Below are positions 1 through 47,570 of a stretch of 47,570 bases of DNA, piece after piece. The position numbers were made by a program, and so were the translations under genes. Positions within the stretch are counted from its first letter, which is position 1; every line of letters begins with the position of its first letter. The notes beneath the pieces are model-generated. The model had not been told where the DNA came from. It made no database searches and worked only from the letters and a program-made list of their open reading frames with translations. The DNA is from a virus, in IMG/VR virus record IMGVR_UViG_3300037245_001839, positions 1 to 47,570 of that record, one strand, 5' to 3'.

Positions 1-127
1 AATATCGGAAGCTCTCCATCAGTTCGTGTTGTCCATAGAATCGAATTAGGTGTTCGCTGGAACGCGGTGTCTGTTATTCCGGTGTTAGTTACAAGATTTG
101 CCAATATCGTCATATCGGGGGCAACGT
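1..127. repeat. 127-base direct terminal repeat, left copy
   Basis: These bases match 47444-47570 exactly. The repeat lies inside the coding sequence of tail-tube B, and joining the two copies restores one uninterrupted reading frame of 1043 codons. An overlap of 127 fits a common assembler k-mer, so I read it as proof of circular closure and not as a natural packaging repeat. Confidence 0.95.
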
Positions 128-2417
128 AAGAATCAAGTTCCCAATTATACGCTAACTCCCTCATTTTCTCTGCACCACGCTGAAAGAACAACACGCTCTC
201 GTTGGCAAGAGTGGCTTGCAAGTTAGCGCTGCCATACGTCGAATGTTGTTTGGCTATTACATTCGATGGGGTTAGCGGCTCGTCCGTCCCACCAGCTATA
301 GTCCACTCTGCACCAGACGTACCGATTAAGAGTTTGTCTTTACCTACCAGCCATTCAATAACATTTACTTGTCTGGATGAAAGCGTAAACACAACAGCAT
401 CATCATCGTTCGCTCCTGCTATCATGTTTTCATAATCGCCTGTTACAGAACCCCATATAGTATCAGGCTGGTTAGTATTACCACCAAACATTAACCGGTC
501 TTCAAAGAACGCTACTGTACCTGGCCAGCCACGATAATTACTCCACGAACCCTCAGACCACTTATGCGTAGCGTCAGTGGAAGCAAGTGTTCGCACTACT
601 GTTCCTGTCGCAGAAGTGCTGCTTGTAACTGCCGTAATTTCGACAATACCGACATGCTCGGTCTGGTCTGTAGAGAAAAAGATGTCAAGCTGGCCTCCCC
701 AATCAGTTATAAAAACAGCCTGGTAGTCAGCGGGTTCTCCGGTATGTGTGCCTGTAGTAGAAACATTTCGCTCCGCTCCAGTACCGTCAGCAGTACCGGA
801 TGTAAATGGAAATACCGTCTCCCAGCCATCGGCGTCCCAGGCAGCACCTATAGTATAATTCCTTTGGATTTCAAATTTGCCTCGCCAAGTACCACCCGAA
901 ACAAGTGTCCAAGTTGCGTCATCATACAAAGTGCTATATTGGTCATTATCGTTTGCAGCGGTAAAAGCACCGGAATACTCCAAAGTATCAAGGGGGTGTA
1001 CTAAACGGAACAATGCGCCAGTCCAGGCTTTTGATGTTGCTTCAACACCGCTCGGTGAATGTCCGGCGGTCGTTCCGGTAACGAAAGGCGTACCGTTGGT
1101 GGCAGTAAGAGTGACGGAACCAGTAGTACCATCTGCCGCTATTTTGGCTTCGGCGTCTATATTCTGGCCACGAAAAGGTCCGGTCCCAATGCCAATAGGT
1201 TCTAACTTCCACGCTGCATTGCCCAGTCGTGACAATTTCCTTGTCTCGTAATCGGGATGGGTAATATAAAGGACATCAGCAGACTGCTTAAACTTCAACT
1301 CAAACAAATCGGCCGTCAGGTATGGTGCTTCTATCTCATAGGAAGTAGTGGAATTGGTGCCCGTTAAGGCGACGACTTCAGCCTGTGTGAGTTCTTTATC
1401 AAATATTGCTACATTATGTATGTCGCCCCCTAACGGGTTGGCACTGTCAAAGCGACCTATTTCAACAGCCCCACCTAAATCATCCATTGCGACATAGGCC
1501 GCATCATTTGTTTGGTTTACATCCCATTCTACCCAATCTACATAGACTTTCATGCTACCTGCCGCCAGATTTCCGCCAAGACCACCGTATGTAGCCACAA
1601 TAAAGTGCCAACCATCAGATACAGTATCAATAGTATCGGCCTGTGCTACTTTGTCTGTGGTATCATCGAATACCTGAAATCTTATTTTGTCTGTCGCCGT
1701 AAAAAGCAACGCCCATTCACGCAAACCACCAACGGGCACATACTTACTTATAATTCCCTGGGAAGTGCCGTCCGATGTGTAATTAACCCACGCATGTAGA
1801 CTAAAGGGGCTGTCATCGGTGCCGTCTCCGAAACTGAGCGCCGCGTGGTCTGAGACGGTTACAAATTCGTCCGTACCATTCAAGTTAAATGCTTTATTTG
1901 CCGTACCCGACTCGTCGGTGGTGCTATATGTATCTGTATTGTCCTCAGCCACACCATCATGGGGGACAGAGCCAACATCATCATCAACAGCCGTGCTTGC
2001 GGCGTTATCATTACATTTCCAATGGGCCACCAAGTTAGCCGATAAAGCACTCAAATCTTCCGTCCCATAAGGTTTGAAAATAACCGCACTATCCGTATAG
2101 AACCTTGCGTACTGGTTTCCAAGTTCGATAATATATGATTGAGATGTGGAGAACTCAAAGGGTAAGAGCCTGGTCTTCAATGAGGAAGTTTTTACTTCGG
2201 CTATGTATCTTGTCCCCGGACGCTTCTCCGCCCCGCCTTGCGGGATAGGTATGGCGTTTTCCATTACTGACAAACCAGACTGGAACTTTGCTAAGTTCTC
2301 ACGGCCATCCAGAAAAGGAGTTAATTCCCCACCATTAAAATTATGATAGGAACGGTAGGGATTATCGGCGACGGCTACCGAGCAAAAAAAGAGAACTAAA
2401 AATATTTTACGAATAAT
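1..2417 (-). CDS. tail tubular protein B (nozzle), N-terminal part
   Basis: This is the 5' part of a gene that continues across the map ends to 46732. The joined product is about 1042 aa. After a hydrophobic N-terminus comes the classic T7 gp12-like opening: an FNGGELTPFLDGR motif, then a run with PIPQGGAEKRPGT. This is the nozzle protein that closes the short tail below the tail-tube A ring. No ATG, GTG or TTG lies between the upstream in-frame stop and the hydrophobic leader. The best start is ATT at 2417, behind AAGGAGGGG. The leader (about residues 1-17, ending AVA) looks like a Sec signal peptide. Residues of about 120-345 (DNA about 2060-1385) form a LamG/concanavalin-like insertion, opening with NLVAHWKCND. 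The family call is strong. The start codon and the secretion role are inference. Confidence 0.88.
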   Translation of the reverse strand, partial: MIRKIFLVLFFCSVAVADNPYRSYHNFNGGELTPFLDGRENLAKFQSGLSVMENAIPIPQGGAEKRPGTRYIAEVKTSSLKTRLLPFEFSTSQSYIIELGNQYARFYTDSAVIFKPYGTEDLSALSANLVAHWKCNDNAASTAVDDDVGSVPHDGVAEDNTDTYSTTDESGTANKAFNLNGTDEFVTVSDHAALSFGDGTDDSPFSLHAWVNYTSDGTSQGIISKYVPVGGLREWALLFTATDKIRFQVFDDTTDKVAQADTIDTVSDGWHFIVATYGGLGGNLAAGSMKVYVDWVEWDVNQTNDAAYVAMDDLGGAVEIGRFDSANPLGGDIHNVAIFDKELTQAEVVALTGTNSTTSYEIEAPYLTADLFELKFKQSADVLYITHPDYETRKLSRLGNAAWKLEPIGIGTGPFRGQNIDAEAKIAADGTTGSVTLTATNGTPFVTGTTAGHSPSGVEATSKAWTGALFRLVHPLDTLEYSGAFTAANDNDQYSTLYDDATWTLVSGGTWRGKFEIQRNYTIGAAWDADGWETVFPFTSGTADGTGAERNVSTTGTHTGEPADYQAVFITDWGGQLDIFFSTDQTEHVGIVEITAVTSSTSATGTVVRTLASTDATHKWSEGSWSNYRGWPGTVAFFEDRLMFGGNTNQPDTIWGSVTGDYENMIAGANDDDAVVFTLSSRQVNVIEWLVGKDKLLIGTSGAEWTIAGGTDEPLTPSNVIAKQHSTYGSANLQATLANESVLFFQRGAEKMRELAYNWELDSYVAPDMTILANLVTNTGITDTAFQRTPNSILWTTRTDGELPI

Positions 2418-3186
2418 AACCCCTCCTTGACCGCCTTGAAGTTAGAAGCGTTCTTGTTGTTACTGACATTGGCCCGCTTTCCTGCGCGTCTATTGTTCTG
2501 GCAATCTGAAGGTAACCGGTGACTTTCGGACTACCATATAACATCGCTTGGAGATTCAGGCTTGCTTCTTCATTCTGCTTGACCGCCGGAGCTAACATTC
2601 GGGCAAGGTTAATAATAAGGCATTGTCTCGGCGACACAGGCCATGCGTCAACGTCAGTTCTTTGATAAACATATTCTACCGCAAGTACGGCTAAATCTGC
2701 GCTTTGAGAAGTGGCGTTAGATGCAAGGTCGGTGGCCTCTACTGCACCGGTAAATGTTGTATCAACCAGATAGGTCAAGTCGCTACCGGACGTATCAGAT
2801 GTAATATACTGACCGACAAGGAACTCCTTGTCTAACTCCCACGACAGAGCCGCAGAGCCTTCGTCAGTAATAATCAAATTACCTTCAGGATCCCACAAGG
2901 CTTCAGGGGCTTCAGCTATTCCCCACACCTTTATGCAATCGGTAGGCTTGGTGAAAGCGTTGTCCGGCCCGAATATAGGCGTGGTAGTTTGGAGGGCGTA
3001 GGCACGTGTCATGGCGAAACTCCATCTTGCCGCAGCTAATATCTCATCACGCGCATCATCGAAGAACGTGGTGCAATATATATGGTTCTGGTCGGTTGTA
3101 CCGGTTACAGTAATTTCTTCTGCACCCAACATACCTAAAGACTGGTTACAAACAGCAATGTTGGCCGTATTCGAAGTCATACTCAT
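2407..3186 (-). CDS. tail tubular protein A (gatekeeper/adaptor)
   Basis: The product is 259 aa. Its N-terminus carries the family pattern: AVCNQSLGMLG, then a spaced DDARDEILAAARWSFAM segment, as in T7 gp11-like proteins that form the ring between portal and nozzle. I chose ATG 3186 because it follows AAGGGG and avoids a long overlap with the preceding gene. A longer frame starting at 3267 exists. The last codons overlap the likely start of tail-tube B by about 11 bases, which suggests translational coupling. Confidence 0.88.
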   Translation of the reverse strand: MSMTSNTANIAVCNQSLGMLGAEEITVTGTTDQNHIYCTTFFDDARDEILAAARWSFAMTRAYALQTTTPIFGPDNAFTKPTDCIKVWGIAEAPEALWDPEGNLIITDEGSAALSWELDKEFLVGQYITSDTSGSDLTYLVDTTFTGAVEATDLASNATSQSADLAVLAVEYVYQRTDVDAWPVSPRQCLIINLARMLAPAVKQNEEASLNLQAMLYGSPKVTGYLQIARTIDAQESGPMSVTTRTLLTSRRSRRGYYS

Positions 3187-3196
3187 AACGCACCCC

Positions 3197-3706
3197 TTAG
3201 TTTTCGGATACTGATACCCTTGAAGACCGCTCCAATCGCCTGTAAGACATATACCACACAATAGCACCCGTAGTTCCAGAGCCGGTGTTTAGTTCGATTT
3301 CTCCAGGAGAAACAAACCAACTTAATGTTTGGCCTGCGCCTACATTAGCTGTTATATCAAGAACTCCTTCATCCATAGCATTAGAGAAACGAATCACATC
3401 TCCGGCGCCCAATGCACTTATATCGACTGTTGTAGAAAACTCTCTATCATAATCCGACCCTGCGGTTGCATCAAGTTGTATCAAGGTATCACAAGGATCG
3501 CCCGCATCAACAGTACATTCACCGAAGAACGATACAATCTCTATCCGACCGCCTGTGATTGTGAATAACTGGTCTGTGGTGCCTGCCAAGGTCGAGGTCA
3601 TTGACAAGAACTGAACACCATTATCAAACCCCCTCGGCACAGCTTCCGTGTGCAAACACAATGCCAAGACTATTAACGCCACCATAATAAGAATAAACTT
3701 TTTCAT
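3197..3706 (-). CDS. signal-peptide virion-cluster protein with a C-terminal beta domain
   Basis: The product is 169 aa. It starts with a textbook Sec signal peptide (two Lys, a hydrophobic core of about 15 residues, then a TEA cleavage-like site near residue 22). The mature part is beta-rich. It ends with a GEIELNTGSGTTGAIVWYMS segment that matches the C-terminus of the next upstream gene product (3819-5213). It sits between capsid and tail genes, so a virion or host-surface role is likely. GAAAGG precedes the ATG. No named family recognised. Confidence 0.75.
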   Translation of the reverse strand: MKKFILIMVALIVLALCLHTEAVPRGFDNGVQFLSMTSTLAGTTDQLFTITGGRIEIVSFFGECTVDAGDPCDTLIQLDATAGSDYDREFSTTVDISALGAGDVIRFSNAMDEGVLDITANVGAGQTLSWFVSPGEIELNTGSGTTGAIVWYMSYRRLERSSRVSVSEN

Positions 3707-3717
3707 TTTGTACCTTT

Positions 3718-3807
3718 CAAAAATAAGGGGCCAGGAACTCGCGTCCGTTTCTTTAGTTTCAGGCTAACGCCTGCTGTACTTTTTTTTGACGTTATGTTCT
3801 TGGCCCC
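3718..3807 (-). terminator. long hairpin with U-rich tail upstream of 3706 gene
   Basis: On the minus strand GGGGCCAAGAAC (3807-3796) pairs with GTTCCTGGCCCC (3738-3727) and is followed by TTATTTTT. The 57-base loop contains a second hairpin, CAGGC/GCCTG. It lies between two late genes. It could be a partial terminator or a leader hairpin that tunes the downstream gene. Confidence 0.55.
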
Positions 3808-3818
3808 TTTATTAAAAC

Positions 3819-5213
3819 TTACTGTGGTGTTACTGTTACGCCTTCGTCAAGTGGAATAAAAACTAAACTCCACTCTATAACACCAGTTGTTCCACCATCG
3901 GAGTCCAACAGTTCAATCATGCCTGGAGGACAATGCCAGGGAACCATAGCACTTTGTGCACCACTATCAGCACCGATAGCTCTTACTACCGGAGCAGGCG
4001 GGTCAGCAGCAGTAAAGACTATCGACCCACCATCTACAGCAAGGTCTATGTCTTGTGCGCTTGTGAACTCAAAATCCTGGTCAGCGTGGTCCATTATGAT
4101 TGAGATAGTACAGGTGGCACCAATATCAGTAGTCACATAACCAGTTAAGCTGGTGATTAGAATATTACCACCTGCGACAAGATACAAGTTGTCATCGGTA
4201 GCGCCAGGCATAATAAAGGTCCTGACATACGTTTTGCCAACCTCTAATACACTACCTGCGGTTATGTTGTGACTGTTGCCGGACAAAAAACCTACCGTCG
4301 AAACAATGGAAAGAACCTCGGTCGTATTAGTAAAAATCTGGTTGTTCATAATCAGTGCCGAGGTGTCGGCTTTCAGTGAAATAGCCGCTACAGCGTTAAG
4401 TCCACCAGCCGTATCACCATTTACGATAGTGTTGTCCTTAATAATCATCCATATCGAGGCAGTTGCAGAATCTTCAATAGCAGCAGTTGAGAAGTCTCCA
4501 GTAAATAGATTACCTGAGATTTCCGTAAAGTCTGAACCAACATGGCTGATGGCAGATACCGCAGCAGCAGCACCAAGTTCAAATTCACAGTTTGTGATTT
4601 TGCCATTGTCGCAACCTGCCGCTATATCAATGCAGTCGATAAACTCGTCGGTGTTTACAGAAGTAGTCCAGAATCGGCAGTCGTTGATAACGTAGTTTTC
4701 CACTCCTGCCTCAACGTCAATAGCGTGGACAGTTGCATCGCCAGCTATGAAGTTGAAGCCGTGAAGCTCTATGTCATCAGCACCGAATACAAACTCGCCA
4801 TTCGCGGTGTAAGTCAGGGTTGGGCGGTCTTCGAAAACACCAAGGCCGAAAATTCTAAGACCAGTTCTTGTAATGTCCACTCCATCAGCAGCAGTTAAGG
4901 TCTCGGCGTGAGCAGGAGCAGCCAGGAGAACGTCGCCATTGTCTGACGCACACTTAAGTGCACCCGCCTTAACAGTTGTTACTGCGTTAGTCCAATCTAC
5001 ACCAGTTCCAGAACCACCAGCGTTACTGTCAACATAGAACACATTGCCAGGGTTGTTTATCTGGCCCAGTTGGTCGGCAGCAAGCTGGATAAGTGCAGTA
5101 GTATCTGTCTGCACATTGGCTACCGCTGTAGCGAGATTTGACCTACCAACCGGAGTTGCATAGACAGAAGCACAAAGCAGCAAAACTAAACAAATTGTAA
5201 TGAATCGTTTCAT
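3819..5213 (-). CDS. signal-peptide protein with parallel beta-helix body
   Basis: The product is 464 aa. Residues 1-19 form a signal peptide (MKR, hydrophobic core, SVYA cleavage-like site). Then a short helical stretch is followed by a right-handed beta-helix-like region (about residues 55-310) with regularly spaced IxxN and DxxI turns. A C-terminal domain of about 130 residues is shared with the 3197-3706 product (MIELLDSDGGTTGVIEWSL). The fold suggests a carbohydrate-binding or degrading appendage or a head fibre. Activity cannot be stated. It lies 16 bases after the 5230-6036 gene. Confidence 0.75.
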   Translation of the reverse strand: MKRFITICLVLLLCASVYATPVGRSNLATAVANVQTDTTALIQLAADQLGQINNPGNVFYVDSNAGGSGTGVDWTNAVTTVKAGALKCASDNGDVLLAAPAHAETLTAADGVDITRTGLRIFGLGVFEDRPTLTYTANGEFVFGADDIELHGFNFIAGDATVHAIDVEAGVENYVINDCRFWTTSVNTDEFIDCIDIAAGCDNGKITNCEFELGAAAAVSAISHVGSDFTEISGNLFTGDFSTAAIEDSATASIWMIIKDNTIVNGDTAGGLNAVAAISLKADTSALIMNNQIFTNTTEVLSIVSTVGFLSGNSHNITAGSVLEVGKTYVRTFIMPGATDDNLYLVAGGNILITSLTGYVTTDIGATCTISIIMDHADQDFEFTSAQDIDLAVDGGSIVFTAADPPAPVVRAIGADSGAQSAMVPWHCPPGMIELLDSDGGTTGVIEWSLVFIPLDEGVTVTPQ

Positions 5214-5229: not shown

Positions 5230-6036
5230 TTATTCTATGCTCAAATCAATTAACGCGTAATCACCAGTAGCGACGGGTGCTTTCGCAACTATACCAACAA
5301 CCACATTACCCTCGGCCACAGTTACGTCCCACAGACCTACAGTACCTTCCGTATTAGCACCGGCACATACAATGTCACCAATAACGATGGTTTCGTTACC
5401 GTTCAGAACTGGGCACATGCCTTTTACCTGCGCCCAGAAGAAGTAATTGGCCGGTACTGCGACATTATTAACACCAACACAAGGACCAGTAGGATTGGTC
5501 GGGAATATAAGCACATCTTTGTACTTATTCACAAACACCGTAATATCAGATGCAGCCTCCCAAGCAGTACGAATACCACCTTTGTCAGCAATCTCAAGTA
5601 TTGTGTCATATCCCGATGGGCCAACAGTATTCGCTATGCTAACTTTATTGTCCTTGATGTTATACATATTACCTTCGCCCGTACCGTCTGGAACATACAT
5701 AATACCGTCGATGAGGTCGTGAACAGCAAGCGCAGTATCTGTAACTACCGTTACTATCTTGTCGCCAGCAATAGGAACGCCGGGAGTATTGGTCTGGGCA
5801 GTGTACGTCCAGTTCGCCGTTTCTACCGAAGACTGGTTTAGTGTAGCTAAAGCGAGAGTGGCGCCGGCGTTTTCACAATACCGCCACAAGCGACCGTCAC
5901 GAGCCCAAGCTAAAGCACTTAACGGAAACTTCTTAGTCGCTGTAGGATGCCAGATGTCTCGGTCAGCGTACAAGTTTTCAGCCCGAAGACGCGGTGCAGA
6001 TTGATTAAACTCATAATTCAAATTATCGTAACTCAT
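5230..6036 (-). CDS. head-associated structural protein, possible decoration protein
   Basis: The product is 268 aa, directly downstream of the major capsid gene (45 bases apart) with GAAAGG before the ATG. It has no signal peptide. The C-terminal half, with valine- and glycine-rich short strands (for example VVVGIVAKAPVATGDYALI), resembles the small beta-barrel of capsid decoration proteins. The position supports a head protein. The decoration role is an inference and the family is not recognised. Confidence 0.6.
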   Translation of the reverse strand: MSYDNLNYEFNQSAPRLRAENLYADRDIWHPTATKKFPLSALAWARDGRLWRYCENAGATLALATLNQSSVETANWTYTAQTNTPGVPIAGDKIVTVVTDTALAVHDLIDGIMYVPDGTGEGNMYNIKDNKVSIANTVGPSGYDTILEIADKGGIRTAWEAASDITVFVNKYKDVLIFPTNPTGPCVGVNNVAVPANYFFWAQVKGMCPVLNGNETIVIGDIVCAGANTEGTVGLWDVTVAEGNVVVGIVAKAPVATGDYALIDLSIE

Positions 6037-6081: not shown

Positions 6082-7056
6082 TTATTGACATTCGACTTTA
6101 ATGACTTTGCATTCGTCGAATCTCATCGCACCCATGTTCATGTGAACGTATACTCTCTGAGAATAGGACCGTGTACTTTCCTCGGTGATTTTGATAGTCA
6201 AAGCGTCAGCTATACCGAGAATCATCCCGTCCTGTGCCCATGCCCAACATTCAAATACATTTGTGTCACCATCGACATCGTTGTTCGTGCCCTTGACAAC
6301 CAGCGGGTCAACAATCCAGTTGATACCCATCCAGTTCCTAAGAACTCGTCCAGCCGGAAGTGGCTTCTGGTTGTTGTAGTCGATATTGACATACTCTTCC
6401 TGACCAAAGAGATTTGTCCCCTGACGTGGTGAAATTACGCACCAGATAGGAATATTCGGGCTTACTTCGTTGTTGGCAAAGTATTCCAGAATAAGTTCTA
6501 TCTTTTCAGTTGTCATACCGGTATCGGACGACGAGGCGTTTCCGATTGCGGTATTGTGGGCGATTGTACGACCGGTATTAAGTCCGGTGTACTTTACATT
6601 GCCATCCTGATTCGCCCAGGTGATTGTAGAGCTACCGCCACCTCGACGACCGGATGTAGTTGCGGCCTCAAACGCATTGAAGATGATTATATCTTTCTTG
6701 CGCTGAACCGCGTTTTTGAACGATGTGACAAAATCACCAGTTGGCGACAACTTAATGTCAAGATCGTCGTCCATGTCAAACAGTACAGAGTTATGGTATG
6801 GAGTGGTGTCCACCCAACGCCTCTGTGTGCTTGGGTCCAACTCAGGTGTTTCAGGATTTCGACCGGTCTTTTCCTGCAACTCAAACTCGGCCATCATATC
6901 AAACGCTTTGTCTTCGTTTGTAGTGAGGTCGGTTTCAATCCTTACCGCTTGGCCGAACCGAGATTCGTCTTTCTGGCACTCCAAATACAGGTCGTCGTGG
7001 AACTTTGACGTAAACCAAGTCGGGATGCCACCTGTCATGTTAATCTTTGAACTCAT
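6082..7056 (-). CDS. major capsid protein
   Basis: The product is 324 aa. I started at ATG 7056 (MSSKINMTGG), which follows GAAAGGTAAC. The TTG at 7071 is less likely. The sequence fits the HK97-fold capsid proteins found in podoviruses with T7-like tails. An N-terminal region on trimming of mutagenic host residues is not needed; charged helical stretches (FAVQR-type NAVQRKKDIIIFNAFEA) and a C-terminal beta-rich domain are visible. It follows the scaffold gene, the usual order. Close relatives would settle the exact capsid family. Confidence 0.85.
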   Translation of the reverse strand: MSSKINMTGGIPTWFTSKFHDDLYLECQKDESRFGQAVRIETDLTTNEDKAFDMMAEFELQEKTGRNPETPELDPSTQRRWVDTTPYHNSVLFDMDDDLDIKLSPTGDFVTSFKNAVQRKKDIIIFNAFEAATTSGRRGGGSSTITWANQDGNVKYTGLNTGRTIAHNTAIGNASSSDTGMTTEKIELILEYFANNEVSPNIPIWCVISPRQGTNLFGQEEYVNIDYNNQKPLPAGRVLRNWMGINWIVDPLVVKGTNNDVDGDTNVFECWAWAQDGMILGIADALTIKITEESTRSYSQRVYVHMNMGAMRFDECKVIKVECQ

Positions 7057-8938: not shown

Positions 8939-10555
8939 CTAAACTATATTCGCCGCCGGACTTCCTTCTTCCGGTTTTCCGCTCGTCGCCTTGTATGCCT
9001 TAGCAAGGTCGGGTGCGGCCTCCCTTGCCTGCTGTGCCGCCTCTGCCGCAGCCCTGTCGTCTTGTATTTGTTTCACCTCTTCTAAACTCCTGAGCCATGT
9101 AGCAGGAACACCGTTGTTCCTTGCCGAATCCCTAAACGCTGTCGGGACGTTGATATGGTCGAGCCATTCGAGTATATTCATATCAGCCAATGGCGACCAT
9201 TCCAGAAGCGTCTTGGTCAACCCCTCGGTCTCGATAGTCCTCAGAGCAAGAGCGAGTCTGCCAAGATACATAATACTGAAATCTTTCTCTGATAACTCCT
9301 TCGGCATTTCAGGTAGTTTATCCTGCCTGCTCAAAATTCCTATCACTCGTTGTATCATAGGGTTAAATAAACCGCTTTGCAATCTTCCGATTATCGGGGT
9401 GAGGAACCTTAACTTCTGTTCGACTCTTGCCTGTACTTCGGTAGCCGTCATGTTCTGCTTATCAATCAGCGGGTCGAACATATCAACGAAGTAACCCTTC
9501 ATAATTTCTTTTTGGGTCTCTTGTATCGCGTTGTTAATCTCTGAGAGATTTCCCTTAAACTCCCAGTATTCAGGTTTCTCATTGCGATAGAAAACCACAC
9601 CGCCGGGCTTAGTAGTCAGGGGCCATACCGAACCATCGTCCTTGACCAACATGGTCGGGTCAACCATCTTGTCCCATGCCTTAACCCTAATCCTCTTGAG
9701 TTCGTTGGCCATTCTGCCATCAGGCAACTTCTTCATTGTCGGGCTACGACCATAGTCTTCGAGGGAATCTTTATCGAACACGCTTACCTGATAAGGAAAT
9801 TCTTCATAACCGCTTTCTGCGCCTTCTACAAACTCTGTCTCGTCCCTTGAGATATAAACACTCGACCACGGCATATTTTTCGGGTCATCAGCGTCAGGGT
9901 CACGGTCTTCTCTTGGTTCTACGACGTGCAGAAATTCAAACTTCTTGTCTCTGTCTATTACGTTGTCGTACGCAGTTTTAATCTTGTCGCCTAAGTTTTC
10001 AAGACCAAACTCCTGAGCAGCCTGACGAGCAGAAAACTTGAACCTTCTAAATACTGTATCAACTTCACCGTCAGAGTTCCTGATGATGTAAATATCACGT
10101 ATGAAATAATTTATGAATACGATAACAGTTTTCTTGCCCTTTTCCTCATAAAGACATCCCGTACCAAAGCAACCCAGAGATTTGAGGTACTCAAAAAACG
10201 CCTCTCTAAACGTACTGCTGATAAGATATTTATGGATTAGCTTAGTAGTCTGGTCAAGCCATTGCTTCGCGTTGTCGTTTTCCTGAAGCTCCTCGTCATC
10301 AACTTCAAGAACGAACGCGCGAGTCTCTGTCGGGAACATGAACGAGTACAGGCCGGAGGCTAATTGAATATTCGACTCTTCCATCGTAGTGTCGAATAAA
10401 TCCATCAACACTTCGCCAGAAGACCGCTCAGAGATTATCTGGCTGTTCTGGGGCATCGCGTAATCAGCACAGTCCTGGTATTGTTCGTCAAAGTTTGCCC
10501 TATCTGTTTCGAGTCGTTTCATTCTCTCAATATATTGTTTAGCTGTGGCGCTCAT
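8939..10555 (-). CDS. portal (head-tail connector) protein
   Basis: The product is 538 aa, the usual length for T7 gp8-like connectors. Residues 1-60 carry the family opening (QYIERMKRLETDRANFDEQY, then YAMPQNS), followed by LASGLYSFMFP, which matches podovirus portals. The dodecameric portal sits at one capsid vertex, where DNA enters and leaves and where the terminase and tail-tube A dock. The last 40 residues are rich in Ala, Glu and Gln, as is common. It overlaps the upstream small gene by 4 bases (ATGA). Confidence 0.92.
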   Translation of the reverse strand: MSATAKQYIERMKRLETDRANFDEQYQDCADYAMPQNSQIISERSSGEVLMDLFDTTMEESNIQLASGLYSFMFPTETRAFVLEVDDEELQENDNAKQWLDQTTKLIHKYLISSTFREAFFEYLKSLGCFGTGCLYEEKGKKTVIVFINYFIRDIYIIRNSDGEVDTVFRRFKFSARQAAQEFGLENLGDKIKTAYDNVIDRDKKFEFLHVVEPREDRDPDADDPKNMPWSSVYISRDETEFVEGAESGYEEFPYQVSVFDKDSLEDYGRSPTMKKLPDGRMANELKRIRVKAWDKMVDPTMLVKDDGSVWPLTTKPGGVVFYRNEKPEYWEFKGNLSEINNAIQETQKEIMKGYFVDMFDPLIDKQNMTATEVQARVEQKLRFLTPIIGRLQSGLFNPMIQRVIGILSRQDKLPEMPKELSEKDFSIMYLGRLALALRTIETEGLTKTLLEWSPLADMNILEWLDHINVPTAFRDSARNNGVPATWLRSLEEVKQIQDDRAAAEAAQQAREAAPDLAKAYKATSGKPEEGSPAANIV

Positions 10556-10741: not shown

Positions 10742-11314
10742 TTACTTCCTTTCAAGTTTAGTTAGACGATTTATTATGCTAAGGACTTCTGGCGGCATGA
10801 GACCCGGCTCGCCCTGTTCGCCACGTTCACCTTTTTCACCCTTGACACTCTTCCCATCTTTGCCCGCCAACCCCTGCGGGCCAGTGTCACCCTTATAGCC
10901 ACTCACCCCACCCTTGCCGCGTTCGCCCTGCAAACCAATATCACCCATGTCTCCACGTTCACCACGTGAACCTCTTGACCCCTGTTCACCAATAGCACTT
11001 TCGCCTTTTTTGCCCCGTGCACCTACTGAGCCTACATCACCCATGTCGCCCTTACTACCTTTTGGACCTTGCTTTCCGATACCAGTCTCTCCAATAGGTC
11101 CGGTGATACCAATGCCATCATCGCCCTTATCGCCCTTATCTCCCATCTCGCCTTTTGGACCCGCATCGCCCTGCGCTAAGACAGATAATTTTCCGCCACC
11201 TTCACCAACAAGATACAGACCGCCCGTCTTGACGACAATGCGACTTGCTATTTTGGCAGCAAGCAGTTCTGTTAATTCCACCTCTTTCGGTAGATGTTTC
11301 GCTTTTTCAGTCAT
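10742..11314 (-). CDS. collagen-like protein
   Basis: The product is 190 aa. Residues about 50-165 are nearly continuous Gly-X-Y triplets rich in Lys, Asp, Glu and Pro (GPKGEMGDKGDKGDDG type). A short helical tail (PPEVLSIINRLTKLERK) could start trimerisation. Phage collagen-like domains are known to form trimeric stalks in fibres. Here the gene sits in the head module between large terminase and portal, and no other globular domain is attached. A head fibre or surface decoration is plausible but not shown. Confidence 0.85.
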   Translation of the reverse strand: MTEKAKHLPKEVELTELLAAKIASRIVVKTGGLYLVGEGGGKLSVLAQGDAGPKGEMGDKGDKGDDGIGITGPIGETGIGKQGPKGSKGDMGDVGSVGARGKKGESAIGEQGSRGSRGERGDMGDIGLQGERGKGGVSGYKGDTGPQGLAGKDGKSVKGEKGERGEQGEPGLMPPEVLSIINRLTKLERK

Positions 11315-34696: not shown

Positions 34697-35101
34697 TTAA
34701 CTTTTATTCCATGACTTGGCCCCGAAGTTATCAACTGCCCAATAGAATCTGTCGATAGTCGTCTGCTTTTTCTTGGTTATTTTGCCATCTTCTTCGATAG
34801 CCAAAATTTCCATGCCTTCCTTCATAATATCGTCCCACCATATTCTTAATCTGCTATCGTGGTCTTTGTAGCCTTTATCGTGAATTGCAACCGCCTTGGC
34901 ATACCAACCTATTGCCGGATACCGCCAACGAATCCACCACGGAGTAGATGCGAAGTCCAAAACAAAACCCACCTCTATCTTAATTATCTCGTTTTCATTT
35001 GTCCGGTACTCGAACGGTTCGAGAATCTGGTACATCTGCCGATGCCAGAAATGTCTCTTTTTGAGCTTGCGGTATTTTAACGGGTTAGTGAAACTACTCA
35101 T
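34697..35101 (-). CDS. DUF1353 family protein
   Basis: The product is 134 aa. The segments GFVLDFASTPWWIRW and AVAIHDKGYKDHDSRL match DUF1353, a phage family with a conserved DFASTP and HDxxY pair. Relatives are often found beside lysis genes, and some may be small peptidases acting on the wall. Last gene of the late block, with an ATGA overlap to the lipoprotein gene before it. Confidence 0.8.
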   Translation of the reverse strand: MSSFTNPLKYRKLKKRHFWHRQMYQILEPFEYRTNENEIIKIEVGFVLDFASTPWWIRWRYPAIGWYAKAVAIHDKGYKDHDSRLRIWWDDIMKEGMEILAIEEDGKITKKKQTTIDRFYWAVDNFGAKSWNKS

Positions 35102-35304
35102 TTCCTAATCTTCCTATCAATAGCAGCGCCACTCAACGCAGCCCCTAACAGCCACACCAGAGGACGGAACTGGAGGGGCACCCACGCCTCCGCAGCTACT
35201 TCCAAGGCAACCTCACCCACAGGGCTTAAAACCATTCCTGAGCCATCCTGGGCCTGCTGACAGCCACACAGGAGTACCAAGCTAACCAGTATCAGGGCTT
35301 TCAT
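35098..35304 (-). CDS. small lipoprotein, outer-spanin candidate
   Basis: The product is 68 aa. Residues 1-15 (MKALILVSLVLLCGC) form a lipobox with Cys at 15. A second hydrophobic segment (PLVWLLGAALSGAAI) ends in a basic tail. Outer-membrane spanins are short lipoproteins, but a second membrane span is not typical of them. The lysis role is inferred from position. Confidence 0.55.
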   Translation of the reverse strand: MKALILVSLVLLCGCQQAQDGSGMVLSPVGEVALEVAAEAWVPLQFRPLVWLLGAALSGAAIDRKIRK

Positions 35305-35416
35305 CTGTCAATTTCCTCCTAATTTCGTCTATAGTTTCCTGTAGCTTTTCCTTGAGCCGCGTGACTTCGGCTTTCAGTTCTTCATTTTCTTGGATTAAAG
35401 GGCATTTAGTATCCAT
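35282..35416 (-). CDS. 44-residue coiled-coil protein
   Basis: The peptide is almost fully helical with heptad spacing (LIQENEELKAEVTRLKEKLQ). It overlaps both the membrane gene before it (11 bases) and the lipoprotein after it (23 bases), as spanin and lysis genes often do. Confidence 0.5.
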   Translation of the reverse strand: MDTKCPLIQENEELKAEVTRLKEKLQETIDEIRRKLTDESPDTG

Positions 35417-35759
35417 TTTTCAACAAGTCCTTGATTTCTTTCATATCAGCCCGCTGCTCGATACGCTGGGTTTCGACTGTGGCTTTTATTTCACTCACAA
35501 CTTCGCCTTGATATTCGGCGTATTGACGGAATATATCCCTGTCGAGCTTCGTTGCTTCGAGCCGAGTCGTTTCTTGTTCGGCGTACAATCTGCTTTCCGT
35601 AGCCTTGCGGTCGGCTGTAACCGCTATTGATTTGATGGTTGCAACCTCTGCGCCTTCCGTGCGAACAGAGCCTAATAGCCTGAGTAGGGCCACAAATATA
35701 GCCACTAAGAGAGTATATATGCCGATGTATTTCTTACTGCCGTTAAAATTCTTTGCCAT
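35406..35759 (-). CDS. membrane-anchored coiled-coil protein, holin or inner-spanin candidate
   Basis: The product is 117 aa. One membrane span at residues 11-30 (IGIYTLLVAIFVALLRLLG) is followed by about 85 residues of charged helix on the far side. This is the layout of inner-membrane spanins and of some XhlA-like holin partners. The nearby lipoprotein supports a spanin pair. No catalytic endolysin is recognised in the block. Confidence 0.5.
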   Translation of the reverse strand: MAKNFNGSKKYIGIYTLLVAIFVALLRLLGSVRTEGAEVATIKSIAVTADRKATESRLYAEQETTRLEATKLDRDIFRQYAEYQGEVVSEIKATVETQRIEQRADMKEIKDLLKNGY

Positions 35760-35770
35760 TGTTTATCCTT

Positions 35771-38700
35771 TTAAGGTGTTTCTTCTGCCCATGTACCAAC
35801 TTCGTCTAATATCTGCCAAGTATTAGCAGCGACTCTTTTAACTTTGATTTTGCCGTAAGTATCGTTTTCACTTTGGTATTGTTCGCCAGCCGCCATTGCT
35901 GTTCCATCAGGTTTTACAAAATGGTCTGCCCCGTCTAAGTCTATATTCAAATCAACTGTCGGCGTGTCATCTACATCTTCAAAGATATAGATTGCACTTG
36001 GGAATACCGCTGGCAAGGTCAGGGTTACCGGTTCCGTTGCACCTTCGTTATTATAAGTATGCCCGTTATCAAATGCGAAAATTGTCGCATCTATCGCGTG
36101 CGATGATGGTGTTGTCGGGTAATTGCCGGAGAAAGAGACTGTATTGACTCCGCCAGTTAAAGGGAAAACATCTTCGGCACTACCATCATCAGGCATAGTA
36201 CCTGCTCCACCCGCCGTCCATGTCATAATCGCATTTGCGGCATCACTTGCATCTAAGGCATCAGTAATGTTAGCGGCCGTTACTGATTCACCGGCAATGT
36301 TGAATTTTACCTGTATTAACTGGAAAGTAGCGAAATCAACCACAGCTATTGCAATAGCACCACCCTTTTGCATATACCTAACTTGGGGGTCATCCGAACT
36401 GCTTTTGAAGCGGGAAGTAAAGGTTATATCATTGTCTGCTCCAGTAGGGTCGATAGTTACACTTCCCGCCGTTCCGTTATCTGTAACTACGCTTGGCCGG
36501 GCTCCTGACCGTCCTGCCGCATAATCTCCAGCTGTTCCGTTCCGACAATTTGTTATAACACCACTTTGAATACTATTGCCTGACCCCTTAGCATTGTTCA
36601 TGCCATATGAAGAACCACCTTCTGTTGTGCAGCCGATAGTTGTCCCTGTTAAATCACCCTCAGTTGAACTTGTAGAAACTGTGCCACCAAAACCACTGAC
36701 ACTATTGGAATTACAAAAGTACGCATACCCTGCAAAATCATGGCCTAATGCAAAAGACTTTAAGGTAGAGTCGCCTTCGCAATAAAAGAATTTTGACGAA
36801 CTATTGCATTTACACCCATCTTTTGCACTACCACCGAAAGTTCCCCTGCATCGCCAAAATATCCCGCCTATTTCAACGCCATCTTCAAAGCCGCCAAAGT
36901 CTCCTTCACAATCAAACCATTCGCCATTGAGGGTTTTGCTGGCTATCATATTCCAACTGAATGTATTACCCCAACAATCAATCCACCTGCCCTCTATATC
37001 ATCTGCACCGAGGATAGAAATTGCATTACCGTTTCTCGCTGGTATGCCGTGGTCAAACCTCATATTCGTATATACACAAGCGGTAGGGTCTATGGCACCT
37101 GCTTCTGCACGAGGTGCGGTCATACTCGAAACATTCACAACAAAAGCATGGTCGCCAGTTGCACTAAGGTTGTCAATGCCAAATCCAGTACCATCATGTG
37201 AAACGGTAAAGTTTGACAGTCGTATATCATCCGCCGTCTGTTCGATTGCAGGCCCGAACTGGTTACCCGTAGCCCTGATTACTACATCAAAAGGCGTAGC
37301 ACCAAGACCCTTTAAGTCTACAAAGGTTGTGTCTAATACCCATTTGCTCGGAACCACATAATTCCCAGACATAAATCTGAGCACTCTTCGGTTTGTGGTA
37401 GAGATAGTTCCCATCCCATGAGTTGTGTCTGCTATAAGGGCATTGTATGCAGTACAGGGGTCATCGGCATCGGAAATTGTAAGTGTATTGCCAAACCATA
37501 CATAAGAGCCATCAAGAGCCGCTGATGTATTGACGGTTAAAATTCCAGCAGTTACCGCACAAGGGTCTGAGCCGCCTATATTCGTTTTGTTTATCGTGCC
37601 TCCGTTTGCCGTCCCCACAGTTATCGAGGTAGCCCCGACATCACCCGTTACTTCTATATCATTGTTGAATCGGTGCTCGGTCGTAGCCCTATAATCCATG
37701 AAACCATCGTTGAGGCTGTCGATGTATTCGTTGCCGTCAACTTGAGTGAAGGCGAGTTTGTGTTCAAAGCGTGTATGGCCTGCACCTTGAAAGCTCATTA
37801 TCTTACCACTGCCGGTGGAGAAAATCATCTCCCCGCTATTTTCACATGGGTCATAACGAATAGAACCAAGGCCGGTGTCCCCAAAACGAGCACGGGCCGT
37901 GCCCTTAAACCAAGCCTCGGTCGAATCTAAATATAAATCACTCGTACCAGTAAAGTGTAATCCTGGGTCGCCACTCCATGTGAAAACTATCGTCCCGCCA
38001 GTGTCGTCTGTTATTGTTATAAGAAAACCTGTTCCAGCAGAGCCTATATTCCAAGGCTGGTCCTCGTTGGAAGTAGTAGTTTCCCAAGAAGCACCACCGC
38101 CATCCCAATAATTGAGAACTGATACACTATTGAAGGCAAGCTTTGCATCAGGTGAAAAATTGAACGTATTTTCACTTTTATCCCATAACGCATCATCTCC
38201 CGTATCTGCCCCATCAAAGTGAACATCACCGTTAAAGATAGCCCCCGCATCAAAGGTCTGTACGCCTGAGAAATTCGTAAACCCGTTCGATGTGATTATC
38301 GTTGAACTCGTATCAGGCCAAGTGAGCGTTCTTACATTGCCTGTTGTTATTCCAGACAGGTCGAAAACTCCTTCTTTTGTATCATCAGCAGTAGCGAACA
38401 ATTCAAAACTACTATCTGGGAATATAGACACCGCCGTAGTCGTGCCGCCACCCGGAACTAAGGTTGGGGTCTGGCCCAGTAAATCTGTATTCTGTACTAA
38501 AGTCCACGTGGAACCACCACCTGTTAATTTGAATGTGAGTTCCGCAATAAGGAAGCCAGTCCCCCTAAAAGCAACTGGTATAGTGTGGACTGAAAATTTA
38601 CTCGAATCAGTTGTACCGCCCAAAGATGTATTGTATTGACCTGTAGGGAGATTGCACATTAAGTGAGATGCTTCTCCCGTCCTGTTCTGGACGCCCCATA

Positions 38701-39820
38701 TTACAATGTTGAAATATTTATTATTGGCAAGTGGAACGCAGGGGTCAGCCAACGTAGTAATATCAGCTACGAGATTAACCGAAGTAGAATATTCACTGCC
38801 TGATAGATTGACTAAATGAATATCCCCTGTAGTGGCCATGTCTATTGCAGGGAAAGTATGTAACCTTAATTGATACACTGTACCCGCTGTAGTCGCTAAT
38901 TGAATTGTGCTCGTTGTGTCTCCGGCTATTGATAGCACAACTCCTGAAGCCCATAGGGCATGTTCAAACCTCATCCTCTCGTTACCTTGAACAGCACCGC
39001 CCCTTGGGTCAGTTATACCAAAAGAGAAATCGTTCCAGTTCCGGTTCATCAGAGCCTTATCGGTACTTGTAGTCGCTGCACTTTGAAGGATAAGGGAAGC
39101 AACCCGAATATGTTCTACTGATTCCGCAGGCCATGAACCGGCAGCGGTAAGAATCTTAGTGCTCTGTGGTATGTAAACAAAAGCAGTGGCAGGAGATGTA
39201 TCAATGCCTACGAGGGCGGTCAGTTCAACTGTTATCGCAGGCGTTGCGTCCAGCAAAGTAAACTCATCGGAGAAGTACATAGTCAAGTCCCCTCCATTCT
39301 CTTTTTCAAGAGAGCCTATAACATTCGGCCCCGATACAGAAATTGTAAAATCTATCTGTTCGAGAAACGAGCCTTGCCAAGTATGAAGATTGGTATCCTG
39401 GCCATCAGAAAAGTCAAGTTGCCCTCCACTTTTGAACTGAAAATGATCTGTATTCGTTCCAGCAGGTATCTGCCTGTCAGTGCCATCGCCGTCAGTAAAC
39501 CAAGGTTCGTTGGGATTGGTGTCCAAGACCCAAAATTGCCCTAATCCCGCACTATCCGCACTTGCAGCGGCGACTTCCTGTAAGTACAGATTTGTGAAAG
39601 CCGGGGAATCTCCTGTCCCTAATCCGAGTGAAGTCCGAGCCGTGTTGCCGGATTCACCTACAAAATTAGAACCGTTCCCAACGATAAAAAGGCCATCAGA
39701 GGGTGTCAGAAATACTATATCAGCCAGATTTTGCCCTGGGCCATAGTCGTACTCCCCGCCCCACGGCTGCGCCATGAGCGGTGTTGCCATCAACAACACT
39801 ATCATCGCGAATGTTTTCAT
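35771..39820 (-). CDS. large tail fibre/spike protein with signal peptide
   Basis: The product is 1349 aa from ATG 39820, which overlaps the previous stop (TGATG) behind AAGAGG. A frame starting at 39880 is 20 residues longer but skips this signal. Residues 1-18 are a Sec signal peptide (LMA cleavage-like site, then QPWGG). Early on, LGLGTGDSPAFTNLYL is a repeat seen in many fibre shafts. Roughly residues 820-1150 are a right-handed beta-helix with Cys and Trp ladders (RWIDCWGNTF, GEWFDCEGDF, GIFWRCRGTF). The C-terminal 200 residues form a separate beta domain. This is the likely receptor-binding or depolymerising appendage. Confidence 0.75.
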   Translation of the reverse strand: MKTFAMIVLLMATPLMAQPWGGEYDYGPGQNLADIVFLTPSDGLFIVGNGSNFVGESGNTARTSLGLGTGDSPAFTNLYLQEVAAASADSAGLGQFWVLDTNPNEPWFTDGDGTDRQIPAGTNTDHFQFKSGGQLDFSDGQDTNLHTWQGSFLEQIDFTISVSGPNVIGSLEKENGGDLTMYFSDEFTLLDATPAITVELTALVGIDTSPATAFVYIPQSTKILTAAGSWPAESVEHIRVASLILQSAATTSTDKALMNRNWNDFSFGITDPRGGAVQGNERMRFEHALWASGVVLSIAGDTTSTIQLATTAGTVYQLRLHTFPAIDMATTGDIHLVNLSGSEYSTSVNLVADITTLADPCVPLANNKYFNIVIWGVQNRTGEASHLMCNLPTGQYNTSLGGTTDSSKFSVHTIPVAFRGTGFLIAELTFKLTGGGSTWTLVQNTDLLGQTPTLVPGGGTTTAVSIFPDSSFELFATADDTKEGVFDLSGITTGNVRTLTWPDTSSTIITSNGFTNFSGVQTFDAGAIFNGDVHFDGADTGDDALWDKSENTFNFSPDAKLAFNSVSVLNYWDGGGASWETTTSNEDQPWNIGSAGTGFLITITDDTGGTIVFTWSGDPGLHFTGTSDLYLDSTEAWFKGTARARFGDTGLGSIRYDPCENSGEMIFSTGSGKIMSFQGAGHTRFEHKLAFTQVDGNEYIDSLNDGFMDYRATTEHRFNNDIEVTGDVGATSITVGTANGGTINKTNIGGSDPCAVTAGILTVNTSAALDGSYVWFGNTLTISDADDPCTAYNALIADTTHGMGTISTTNRRVLRFMSGNYVVPSKWVLDTTFVDLKGLGATPFDVVIRATGNQFGPAIEQTADDIRLSNFTVSHDGTGFGIDNLSATGDHAFVVNVSSMTAPRAEAGAIDPTACVYTNMRFDHGIPARNGNAISILGADDIEGRWIDCWGNTFSWNMIASKTLNGEWFDCEGDFGGFEDGVEIGGIFWRCRGTFGGSAKDGCKCNSSSKFFYCEGDSTLKSFALGHDFAGYAYFCNSNSVSGFGGTVSTSSTEGDLTGTTIGCTTEGGSSYGMNNAKGSGNSIQSGVITNCRNGTAGDYAAGRSGARPSVVTDNGTAGSVTIDPTGADNDITFTSRFKSSSDDPQVRYMQKGGAIAIAVVDFATFQLIQVKFNIAGESVTAANITDALDASDAANAIMTWTAGGAGTMPDDGSAEDVFPLTGGVNTVSFSGNYPTTPSSHAIDATIFAFDNGHTYNNEGATEPVTLTLPAVFPSAIYIFEDVDDTPTVDLNIDLDGADHFVKPDGTAMAAGEQYQSENDTYGKIKVKRVAANTWQILDEVGTWAEETP

Positions 39821-40329
39821 CAATGCCTCTTGGTATCTATATAGATATTTGTTGCAGTTTTCAAGTCCGTACACACCCACAAAAACCTGTCATAGCCGTG
39901 GCAGTTGACAACAAACCTCGCTATCTGGTCTGCTCCTGGCGCCACAACCTTTGTCCACGTTACCCATGCCGCTGTATTCGTGCCACCCGAAATAGCATCA
40001 CAGAACTTTGCTGAGTCATCAGCTTCCTGAGTGCCTTGGATACAGGTCAAGTCCCCTATCAGTGTGTAACGGTCTGTACCTGCGACGGCGTAAAGCGGAA
40101 TAACTAAGGCGTCATCTTCAGTGCCATCGGCTCGGACCCGAAACTCAAAGGCCACTTGGCCGTTATCCGGCTCGTAAATAACCTTCTTGGTATCTGACAG
40201 AGCAACTATATCGGCGTTAGCCCTTTTGTCTACGTCTATCGGAGCCTCACCAGCCGCCACTACCACAGTAAGAGAACCTGCGTTCGCCCAAGGATATTGC
40301 CGGGTATATGGTGAGTGTCCTCTTTTCAT
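39820..40329 (-). CDS. virion-associated beta protein
   Basis: The product is 169 aa, beta-rich and without a signal peptide. It lies between the big ejection protein and the fibre gene, immediately adjoining the former and overlapping the latter by 1 base. A fibre adaptor or tail collar protein would fit the position. No family recognised. Confidence 0.55.
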   Translation of the reverse strand: MKRGHSPYTRQYPWANAGSLTVVVAAGEAPIDVDKRANADIVALSDTKKVIYEPDNGQVAFEFRVRADGTEDDALVIPLYAVAGTDRYTLIGDLTCIQGTQEADDSAKFCDAISGGTNTAAWVTWTKVVAPGADQIARFVVNCHGYDRFLWVCTDLKTATNIYIDTKRH

Positions 40330-46735: not shown

Positions 46736-47570
46736 CTTAAATTGAACTCAGCCATAATACTCAACAAGGTTAATGGTTCAGGTGACAACTGGTACACAAA
46801 AATATATCCGTTCCGAGTCCAACCAGGAGAAAAGGTCTTCCTGTCTATGCTTGTGGTCTGGTTGGTGATACTATAAGTCTGTAGATTGTCAGCGTCCCGC
46901 CCAATAGAAAAATCGCCACTCTTGTACCATCGAGAGATTACTTCGCTTATCTTCTTTTGTTTGCCTTGGATGGTCTGACCCTCTACCCAACTGAGAGGCA
47001 TTGTTCTTAACTGGACTTCGTACCCTAACCCCATTTGAACTGTAAAAGCTGTCGTGGTAATGTCGTCCAATGAAAGAGTTATCGCTCCGCCAGCTACTAC
47101 TTCAGTGTCGAATTGTACACCGTCAGCTAATACATACACCGTCTGTCCTTCAAGGTGGCCTAACCCTGTCATAGCAGACGAAGCGGTAACAGAATCGTAG
47201 GTAATGCCGCAATCTACAAAGATAGCATCCGTTGAGTCGCCGAAATCCCTTGGCTGGAACTGTTCTATGTACCTAACAGTATTAGAATCTATTATTCGTT
47301 CCACTATCGCCCATACCTCGTCTTCGGGGCTACCGTTTATCACTGCCACAGACTCTATATCGGAGTCCGTTAAAGTCCCCGCAAGGTTTGTCTGGGTTAT
47401 CATTCTTGACCATGCCGTTATGTTCTCTGCCCGCTCGTAAGAGAATATCGGAAGCTCTCCATCAGTTCGTGTTGTCCATAGAATCGAATTAGGTGTTCGC
47501 TGGAACGCGGTGTCTGTTATTCCGGTGTTAGTTACAAGATTTGCCAATATCGTCATATCGGGGGCAACGT
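46732..47570 (-). CDS. tail tubular protein B (nozzle), C-terminal part
   Basis: This is the 3' part of the gene that begins at 2417. In the joined numbering it covers the last 237 residues, and the 127-base end repeat is counted once. It is beta-rich, with the segments TFSPGWTRNGYIFVYQLSPEP near the end, as in the nozzle tip of related proteins. It ends at TGA 46732, overlapping the next gene. Confidence 0.85.
   Translation of the reverse strand, partial: VAPDMTILANLVTNTGITDTAFQRTPNSILWTTRTDGELPIFSYERAENITAWSRMITQTNLAGTLTDSDIESVAVINGSPEDEVWAIVERIIDSNTVRYIEQFQPRDFGDSTDAIFVDCGITYDSVTASSAMTGLGHLEGQTVYVLADGVQFDTEVVAGGAITLSLDDITTTAFTVQMGLGYEVQLRTMPLSWVEGQTIQGKQKKISEVISRWYKSGDFSIGRDADNLQTYSITNQTTSIDRKTFSPGWTRNGYIFVYQLSPEPLTLLSIMAEFNLR
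47444..47570. repeat. 127-base direct terminal repeat, right copy
   Basis: These bases are identical to 1-127. Trimming one copy gives a circle of 47443 bp with continuous coding across the join. Confidence 0.95.

Follow-up and report, generated by a model that had tools for sequence, protein, structure and literature searches.

The sequence studied here (the window) is a viral stretch of 47,570 nucleotides, the IMG/VR record IMGVR_UViG_3300037245_001839, and this work concerns the leader peptides carried by several of its tail-type proteins. The window has a 127-bp direct repeat at its ends (1-127 = 47444-47570) and looks like a complete phage contig. The contig is either circular or redundant at its termini, and its ends split the gene of the tail nozzle (tail tube B). 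The structural module lies on the minus strand in the order terminase, portal, scaffold, capsid, a gene at 5230-6036, a spike-like protein of 464 amino acids (aa), a 169-aa protein, tail tube A and the nozzle. An acetyltransferase-like protein, an internal virion protein, large ejection-type proteins, a gene at 39820-40329, a 1349-aa fibre-like protein and a lysis-type cassette follow the nozzle (Table 1). Judging by its nozzle and capsid sequences, the window is of the broad epsilon15/HTVC010P podovirus type.

Leader-bearing products of the window

Sec-type leaders were originally predicted on four late products: the nozzle, the 464-aa spike-like protein, the 169-aa protein and the fibre-like protein. 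All four leaders are present in the sequence. They were assessed with a home-made signal-peptide scorer based on 40 E. coli leaders; as the 38 leaders that it recovers belong to that same set, this is no independent test. The nozzle, spike-like and fibre-like leaders score positive, and every other late gene is negative. Small residues are present at positions -3 and -1 in the spike-like and fibre-like leaders, and none of the four leaders has a lipobox for signal peptidase II. The capsid, scaffold, portal, tail-tube A and ejection proteins of the window have no Sec-type leader according to the scorer; the original prediction had named all of these except the scaffold as leaderless. It had also regarded the four leader-bearing products as probable virion proteins. 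This holds by sequence homology for the nozzle; the 464-aa protein is spike-like by its predicted fold, and the 169-aa and fibre-like products are assigned to the virion by position and composition only.

Such leaders are rare outside this group of genes, more so than chance would allow for. Among 193 mechanically defined open reading frames (ORFs) of the window, just one other scores. The structural modules of HTVC035P, Baldr, HTVC010P and epsilon15, with 44 annotated genes between them, include no gene that scores. Near 23 leader-type nozzles, 16 of 198 ORFs score (the nozzle itself excluded), and all 16 are situated 1.3-4.3 kb upstream of the nozzle, i.e., in the interval that the genes of the 169-aa and spike-like proteins occupy in the window. 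Near 51 leaderless nozzles the count is 0 of 357. The difference corresponds to P = 5e-8, a value that overstates independence because the loci within each group are related.

Table 1. Coordinates of the leader-bearing genes and other features of the window
Feature	Coordinates	Strand	Match or basis
Mature nozzle, first part, DNPYRSYHNFNGGELTP..., with LamG domain	1..2366	-	homologous to phrog_376 and PDB 8ck1 tail nozzle
Mature nozzle, rest; gene crosses contig ends	46732..47443	-	
Nozzle (tail tube B) leader MRKIFLVLFFCSVAVA, before DNPYR; cleavage predicted after 2367, ATT at 2412-2414	2367..2414	-	
Ribosome-binding site AAGGAGG, 7 nt before ATT start	2422..2428	-	conserved with ATT in L001, L019, L036
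169-aa protein, beta-rich domain homologous to C-terminus of 464-aa protein	3197..3706	-	
Leader of 169-aa protein, MKKFILIMVALIVLALCLHTEA, before VPRG; cleavage site weak here, stronger in homologues	3641..3706	-	
464-aa spike-like protein with helical stalk, right-handed beta-helix and, at its C-terminus, a beta domain	3819..5213	-	
Leader of 464-aa protein, MKRFITICLVLLLCASVYA, before TPVG	5157..5213	-	
1349-aa fibre-like protein adjoining lysis-type cassette	35771..39820	-	
Leader of fibre-like protein, MKTFAMIVLLMATPLMA, before QPWG	39770..39820	-	
Tail tube A (adaptor), leaderless, begins MSMTSNTANIAVC...	2407..3183	-	phrog_394
Major capsid protein, leaderless	6082..7056	-	phrog_3437
Portal, leaderless	8939..10555	-	phrog_332
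Small lipoprotein, LLCGC lipobox, outer spanin-like	35098..35304	-	predicted from sequence
Inner-membrane spanin-like protein, one transmembrane segment and coiled coil	35406..35759	-	predicted from sequence

Leaders among the relatives

The nozzle gene lies directly downstream of tail tube A within the structural module. It runs from 2414 to 1 and then from 47443 to 46732, and encodes about 1,040 aa. Its core matches the phrog_376 tail protein (E 2.2e-128) and the solved nozzle 8ck1 (E 5.6e-97). The phrog_376 match begins at nozzle residue 25 (counted from the residue that precedes the ATT-encoded start), which places the leader ahead of the conserved protein.

The window nozzle has no ATG, GTG or TTG start codon. 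In the original prediction the gene began at 2417; the leader described there stands, and the start is most likely the ATT at 2414-2412, placed behind the AAGGAGG motif. The ATT is found in the window, L001, L019 and L036 and is aligned with the ATG of the other relatives; further non-ATG starts are ATA in L006, GTG in L067 and probably TTG in L052. A sequencing error is unlikely, as the ATT is conserved across proteins that are about 50-65% identical. Initiation at AUU is rare and sensitive to IF3, as in infC, and the ATT start may therefore throttle nozzle synthesis. A programmed +1 frameshift from tail tube A instead of ATT initiation is disfavoured: the ribosome-binding site is at an ideal distance from the ATT, which coincides with the ATG of relatives.

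To compare leaders, we collected nozzle relatives from IMG/VR, 34 initially and 80 more at wider reach. Thirty-four loci on 28 contigs, including a Planctomycetota contig, have a hydrophobic N-terminal leader; they comprise the clade of the window and its near kin. The other 78 nozzle relatives have none. Leaderless nozzles start like MARVAVQLTNFTGGEL (e.g., MARVAVQLTNF, MPRTTLALTSF, MGKQLLSIPSF, MANIRTLQRSF). The close relatives all start at the leader, often with an ATG and a ribosome-binding site; none starts downstream of it, which had been named beforehand as the outcome that would speak against the leaders. This supports the proposal that they are real export signals, unexpected on tail-type proteins. 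A search of the open-access literature, which did not extend to subscription papers and preprints, yielded no earlier description of nozzles with signal peptides.

All 25 distinct nozzle leaders have one or two Lys/Arg residues at the start, an uncharged hydrophobic core and no acidic residues. Position -1 is Ala, Gly or Ser in 24 of the 25; position -3 is A in 16 and V in five. After the predicted cleavage, nine residues are left before the conserved F in 13 leaders and ten in another nine; leaderless nozzles have nine or eight residues there after removal of Met. Since this spacing matches, the leader looks like a clean addition whose removal would restore the ancestral N-terminus. At the first four mature positions, leader-bearing nozzles have neutral or acidic residues and leaderless ones have basic residues (the rows compared are related), a shift that fits an N-terminus having to be translocated.

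Complete relatives have one nozzle gene each, and thus the virion nozzle must derive from the leader-bearing gene. A dual start yielding a cytoplasmic form of the nozzle was rejected, as no conserved internal start behind the leader was found among the relatives, with the exception of an internal ATG in L052. Most clade nozzles also carry LamG lectin domains, inserted in one or two copies, which brings them to 1,000-1,340 aa. Leaders are also found on the short nozzles of L052 and L158 (839 and 777 aa), which would count against a leader tied to the LamG insertion.

The 169-aa protein and the spike-like protein form a second family: the former is 37% identical to the C-terminal domain of the latter (E 4e-12). 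Complete members near leader-type nozzles have leaders of 16-33 aa that are strongly divergent in sequence and retain the same architecture. Many distant relatives elsewhere are leaderless (L175-L177, L184-L190, L194-L197), and few have a leader (L180, L181, L211; by eye also L178, L179, L212, L217). Because clade members carry leaders and most distant relatives do not, it appears from the sequences that two unrelated protein families gained export signals in the same phages. In L174, a homologue of the 169-aa protein (2593-3156) stands beside a leader-bearing nozzle and has a lipoprotein signal with a lipobox, MKKTFILIVILLLLCGC. Searches of Pfam, PHROGs and PDB sequences gave no name for the 169-aa protein. 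The model of the spike-like protein (predicted local distance difference test, pLDDT, 77) starts with the leader as a helix, continues through a stalk of helices into a right-handed beta-helix and ends in a beta domain; its best Foldseek matches are phage tailspikes and tail fibres. Relatives of the fibre-like protein were not found in the viral contigs or in the six relatives searched. In G002 and G004, as in the window, the gene after the homologue of 39820-40329 is also leader-bearing.

In the nozzle tree the leader-bearing proteins group together at 95-100% support, and a minimum of one or two changes would account for the leader; one leaderless long branch (L096) is at the base of the group. 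The nozzle leader may have a single origin. The tree makes it a clade trait, which takes in a nozzle gene of a Planctomycetota chromosome. That gene (L046, 3225-7094 of JABMRO010000035.1) is the sole close nozzle in GTDB genomes; it is leader-bearing and encodes 1,289 aa. There are no other phage genes around it, and a transposase remnant and a histidine kinase adjoin it. The histidine kinase is shared within the Planctomycetota family to which this contig belongs, at 92% identity in one member, so the contig cannot be put down to a stray virus. Genomes of this family also include two phage-like contigs with more distant nozzles; the nozzle has a leader-like start in L158 and none in L159, and both contigs have leader-bearing proteins next to tail tube A. 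Planctomycetota are likely, if unproven, hosts. The host phylum was rejected as a sufficient cause of the leader, as leaderless nozzles occur in other Planctomycetota genomes (L132, L145, L159, L160).

Two other regions of the window should be mentioned. Downstream of the fibre-like gene, 34697-35759 encodes a DUF1353 protein and the spanin-like pair; an endolysin was not identified in this interval. Upstream of the portal is a collagen-like repeat protein (10742-11314), conserved in G002 and G003.

Proposed export of tail parts and alternative explanations

We regard it as very probable that the leaders are true Sec signals. Given general knowledge of the Sec pathway, export of the proteins that carry them is well supported, and their cleavage by signal peptidase I can be inferred. 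Leaders occur on the proteins that are distal or external and are missing from those of the head, the portal, the adaptor and the interior. The simplest reading of this split is assembly in two compartments. This clade of uncultured phages would have added cleavable signals for signal peptidase I to its outer tail parts. The nozzle and the spike- and fibre-like proteins would be synthesised with a leader, cross the inner membrane and lose the leader on its far side, which leaves an N-terminus like that of leaderless nozzles. Signal peptidase I works on the outer side of the inner membrane, so the nozzle trimmed to its ancestral N-terminus would be released there. The head, portal, adaptor (tail tube A), scaffold and ejection proteins would remain in the cytoplasm. 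The two halves would meet once the inner membrane is breached at lysis, and the virion would be finished in the periplasm or during lysis.

For such two-compartment assembly completed at lysis, where the joining step is itself what we infer, we see slightly less than an even chance. A little less probable again is the fuller version, in which heads with adaptor form in the cytoplasm, Sec exports the nozzle and spikes to a possibly enlarged planctomycetal periplasm, and final assembly takes place only as the inner membrane opens. The planctomycetal periplasm can be greatly enlarged (PMC5394234); that it may give room for such assembly is speculation. The spanin-like genes suggest lytic exit through the outer membrane. 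Non-lytic release, as in the deep-sea Planctomycetes phage ZRK32, a 21.9-kb element (PMC10945688), was set aside, as the spanin-like pair favours lysis. The original prediction had offered three meanings of the leaders, namely surface display, assembly after lysis begins and processing during assembly. The fit of the cleavage sites favours export, cleavage by signal peptidase and late joining; none of the three is demonstrated.

Several observations weigh against assembly in two compartments. The leader calls depend on a home-made scorer, which is a weakness. The leader of the 169-aa protein has a strong hydrophobic core and a weak T-E-A site, which leaves it below the scorer cut-off; most of its close homologues pass the scorer or show clear A-x-A sites (P-A-F-A, P-A-Y-A). 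The nozzle leader of L158 has a poor cleavage site. The 169-aa, spike-like and fibre-like products are only putative virion proteins. In other podoviruses, DNA-filled heads without a nozzle tend to leak, so late joining needs another plug.

Four other explanations are less probable. The leading one, though unlikely, is that the exported nozzle and spikes, with their LamG domain and beta-helix, are displayed or released in the host envelope and mask receptors or glycans there, blocking superinfection or the loss of progeny on debris, and that virions use the molecules that escape export. The lipoprotein version in L174 would be membrane-anchored, the frequent LamG domains are compatible with such a role, and the solitary leader-bearing nozzle in the Planctomycetota chromosome hints at a function outside the virion. 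However, a nozzle is an odd decoy, the window proteins have no anchor, and a second start for a cytoplasmic form is not conserved (the internal ATG of L052 excepted).

We give distinctly poorer chances to the leader being retained on the virion as a membrane-active or assembly peptide that aids tail entry into the next host or tethers assembly to the inner face of the membrane. A hydrophobic N-terminal helix is predicted on the spike-like protein and, with low confidence, on the nozzle, whose AlphaFold model is poor (pLDDT 58, 19 sequences) and did not yield the position of the N-terminus. Yet the conserved A-x-A site, the polar +1 residue and the match to the leaderless N-terminus would be superfluous for such a role, and the peptide would have had to originate simultaneously in three unrelated proteins. 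Marginally less probable still, the leaders could be pro-peptides that are removed in the cytoplasm as assembly proceeds, or folding could be too fast for export, leaving the leader without effect. Large multimeric proteins are in general poor Sec substrates, but Sec architecture is kept across highly divergent leaders, which argues for selection for recognition by Sec and signal peptidase. Finally, the lack of a standard start codon in the window nozzle could mean that the leader is misread upstream DNA and the true start lies downstream, which is very improbable: most relatives have an ATG at the same point, a downstream start is not conserved, leaders precede two protein families, and a misassigned start codon was rejected on the start positions of relatives.

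Comparison with known systems

According to standard teaching, the tails of double-stranded DNA phages are assembled entirely in the cytoplasm, and we know of no tailed phage that moves outer tail parts out of the cytoplasm before the particle is complete. If assembly in two compartments is true, tail production lies partly outside the cytoplasm, and the view of when virions are completed changes. It would also bear on the coupling of lysis and assembly and on the use that a virus can make of the enlarged periplasm of Planctomycetota.

The window nozzle is homologous over its whole length outside the insertions to the nozzle (tail tubular protein B) of T7-like, epsilon15-like and HTVC010P-like podoviruses. 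These phages and the window share the gene order portal, scaffold, capsid, tube A, nozzle, acetyltransferase and internal virion proteins. The known nozzles are leaderless and start directly with M[A/P/G]...F.GGEL, whereas the window nozzle has a leader and a LamG insertion. The best Foldseek matches of the spike-like model are right-handed beta-helix tailspikes (Acinetobacter Fri1 gp49, 6c72; Klebsiella K2-2 TSP), with low TM-scores and about 10% identity. To our knowledge, known tailspikes are cytoplasmic and have no signal peptide.

The coat proteins pIII and pVIII of filamentous phages are Sec pre-proteins assembled at the membrane, and virion proteins of this kind are the point of likeness to the window. 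However, filamentous phages extrude without lysis and have no capsid or portal machinery, and the window is a tailed phage with double-stranded DNA. The filamentous coat protein system is described in a secretome review (PMC4823517). Among phage-encoded envelope proteins, Lom of lambda (PMC12309495) is, like the window proteins, a late product with a signal peptide, encoded near fibre genes. Lom, however, is an outer-membrane protein of the host surface, and the window protein is a tail nozzle.

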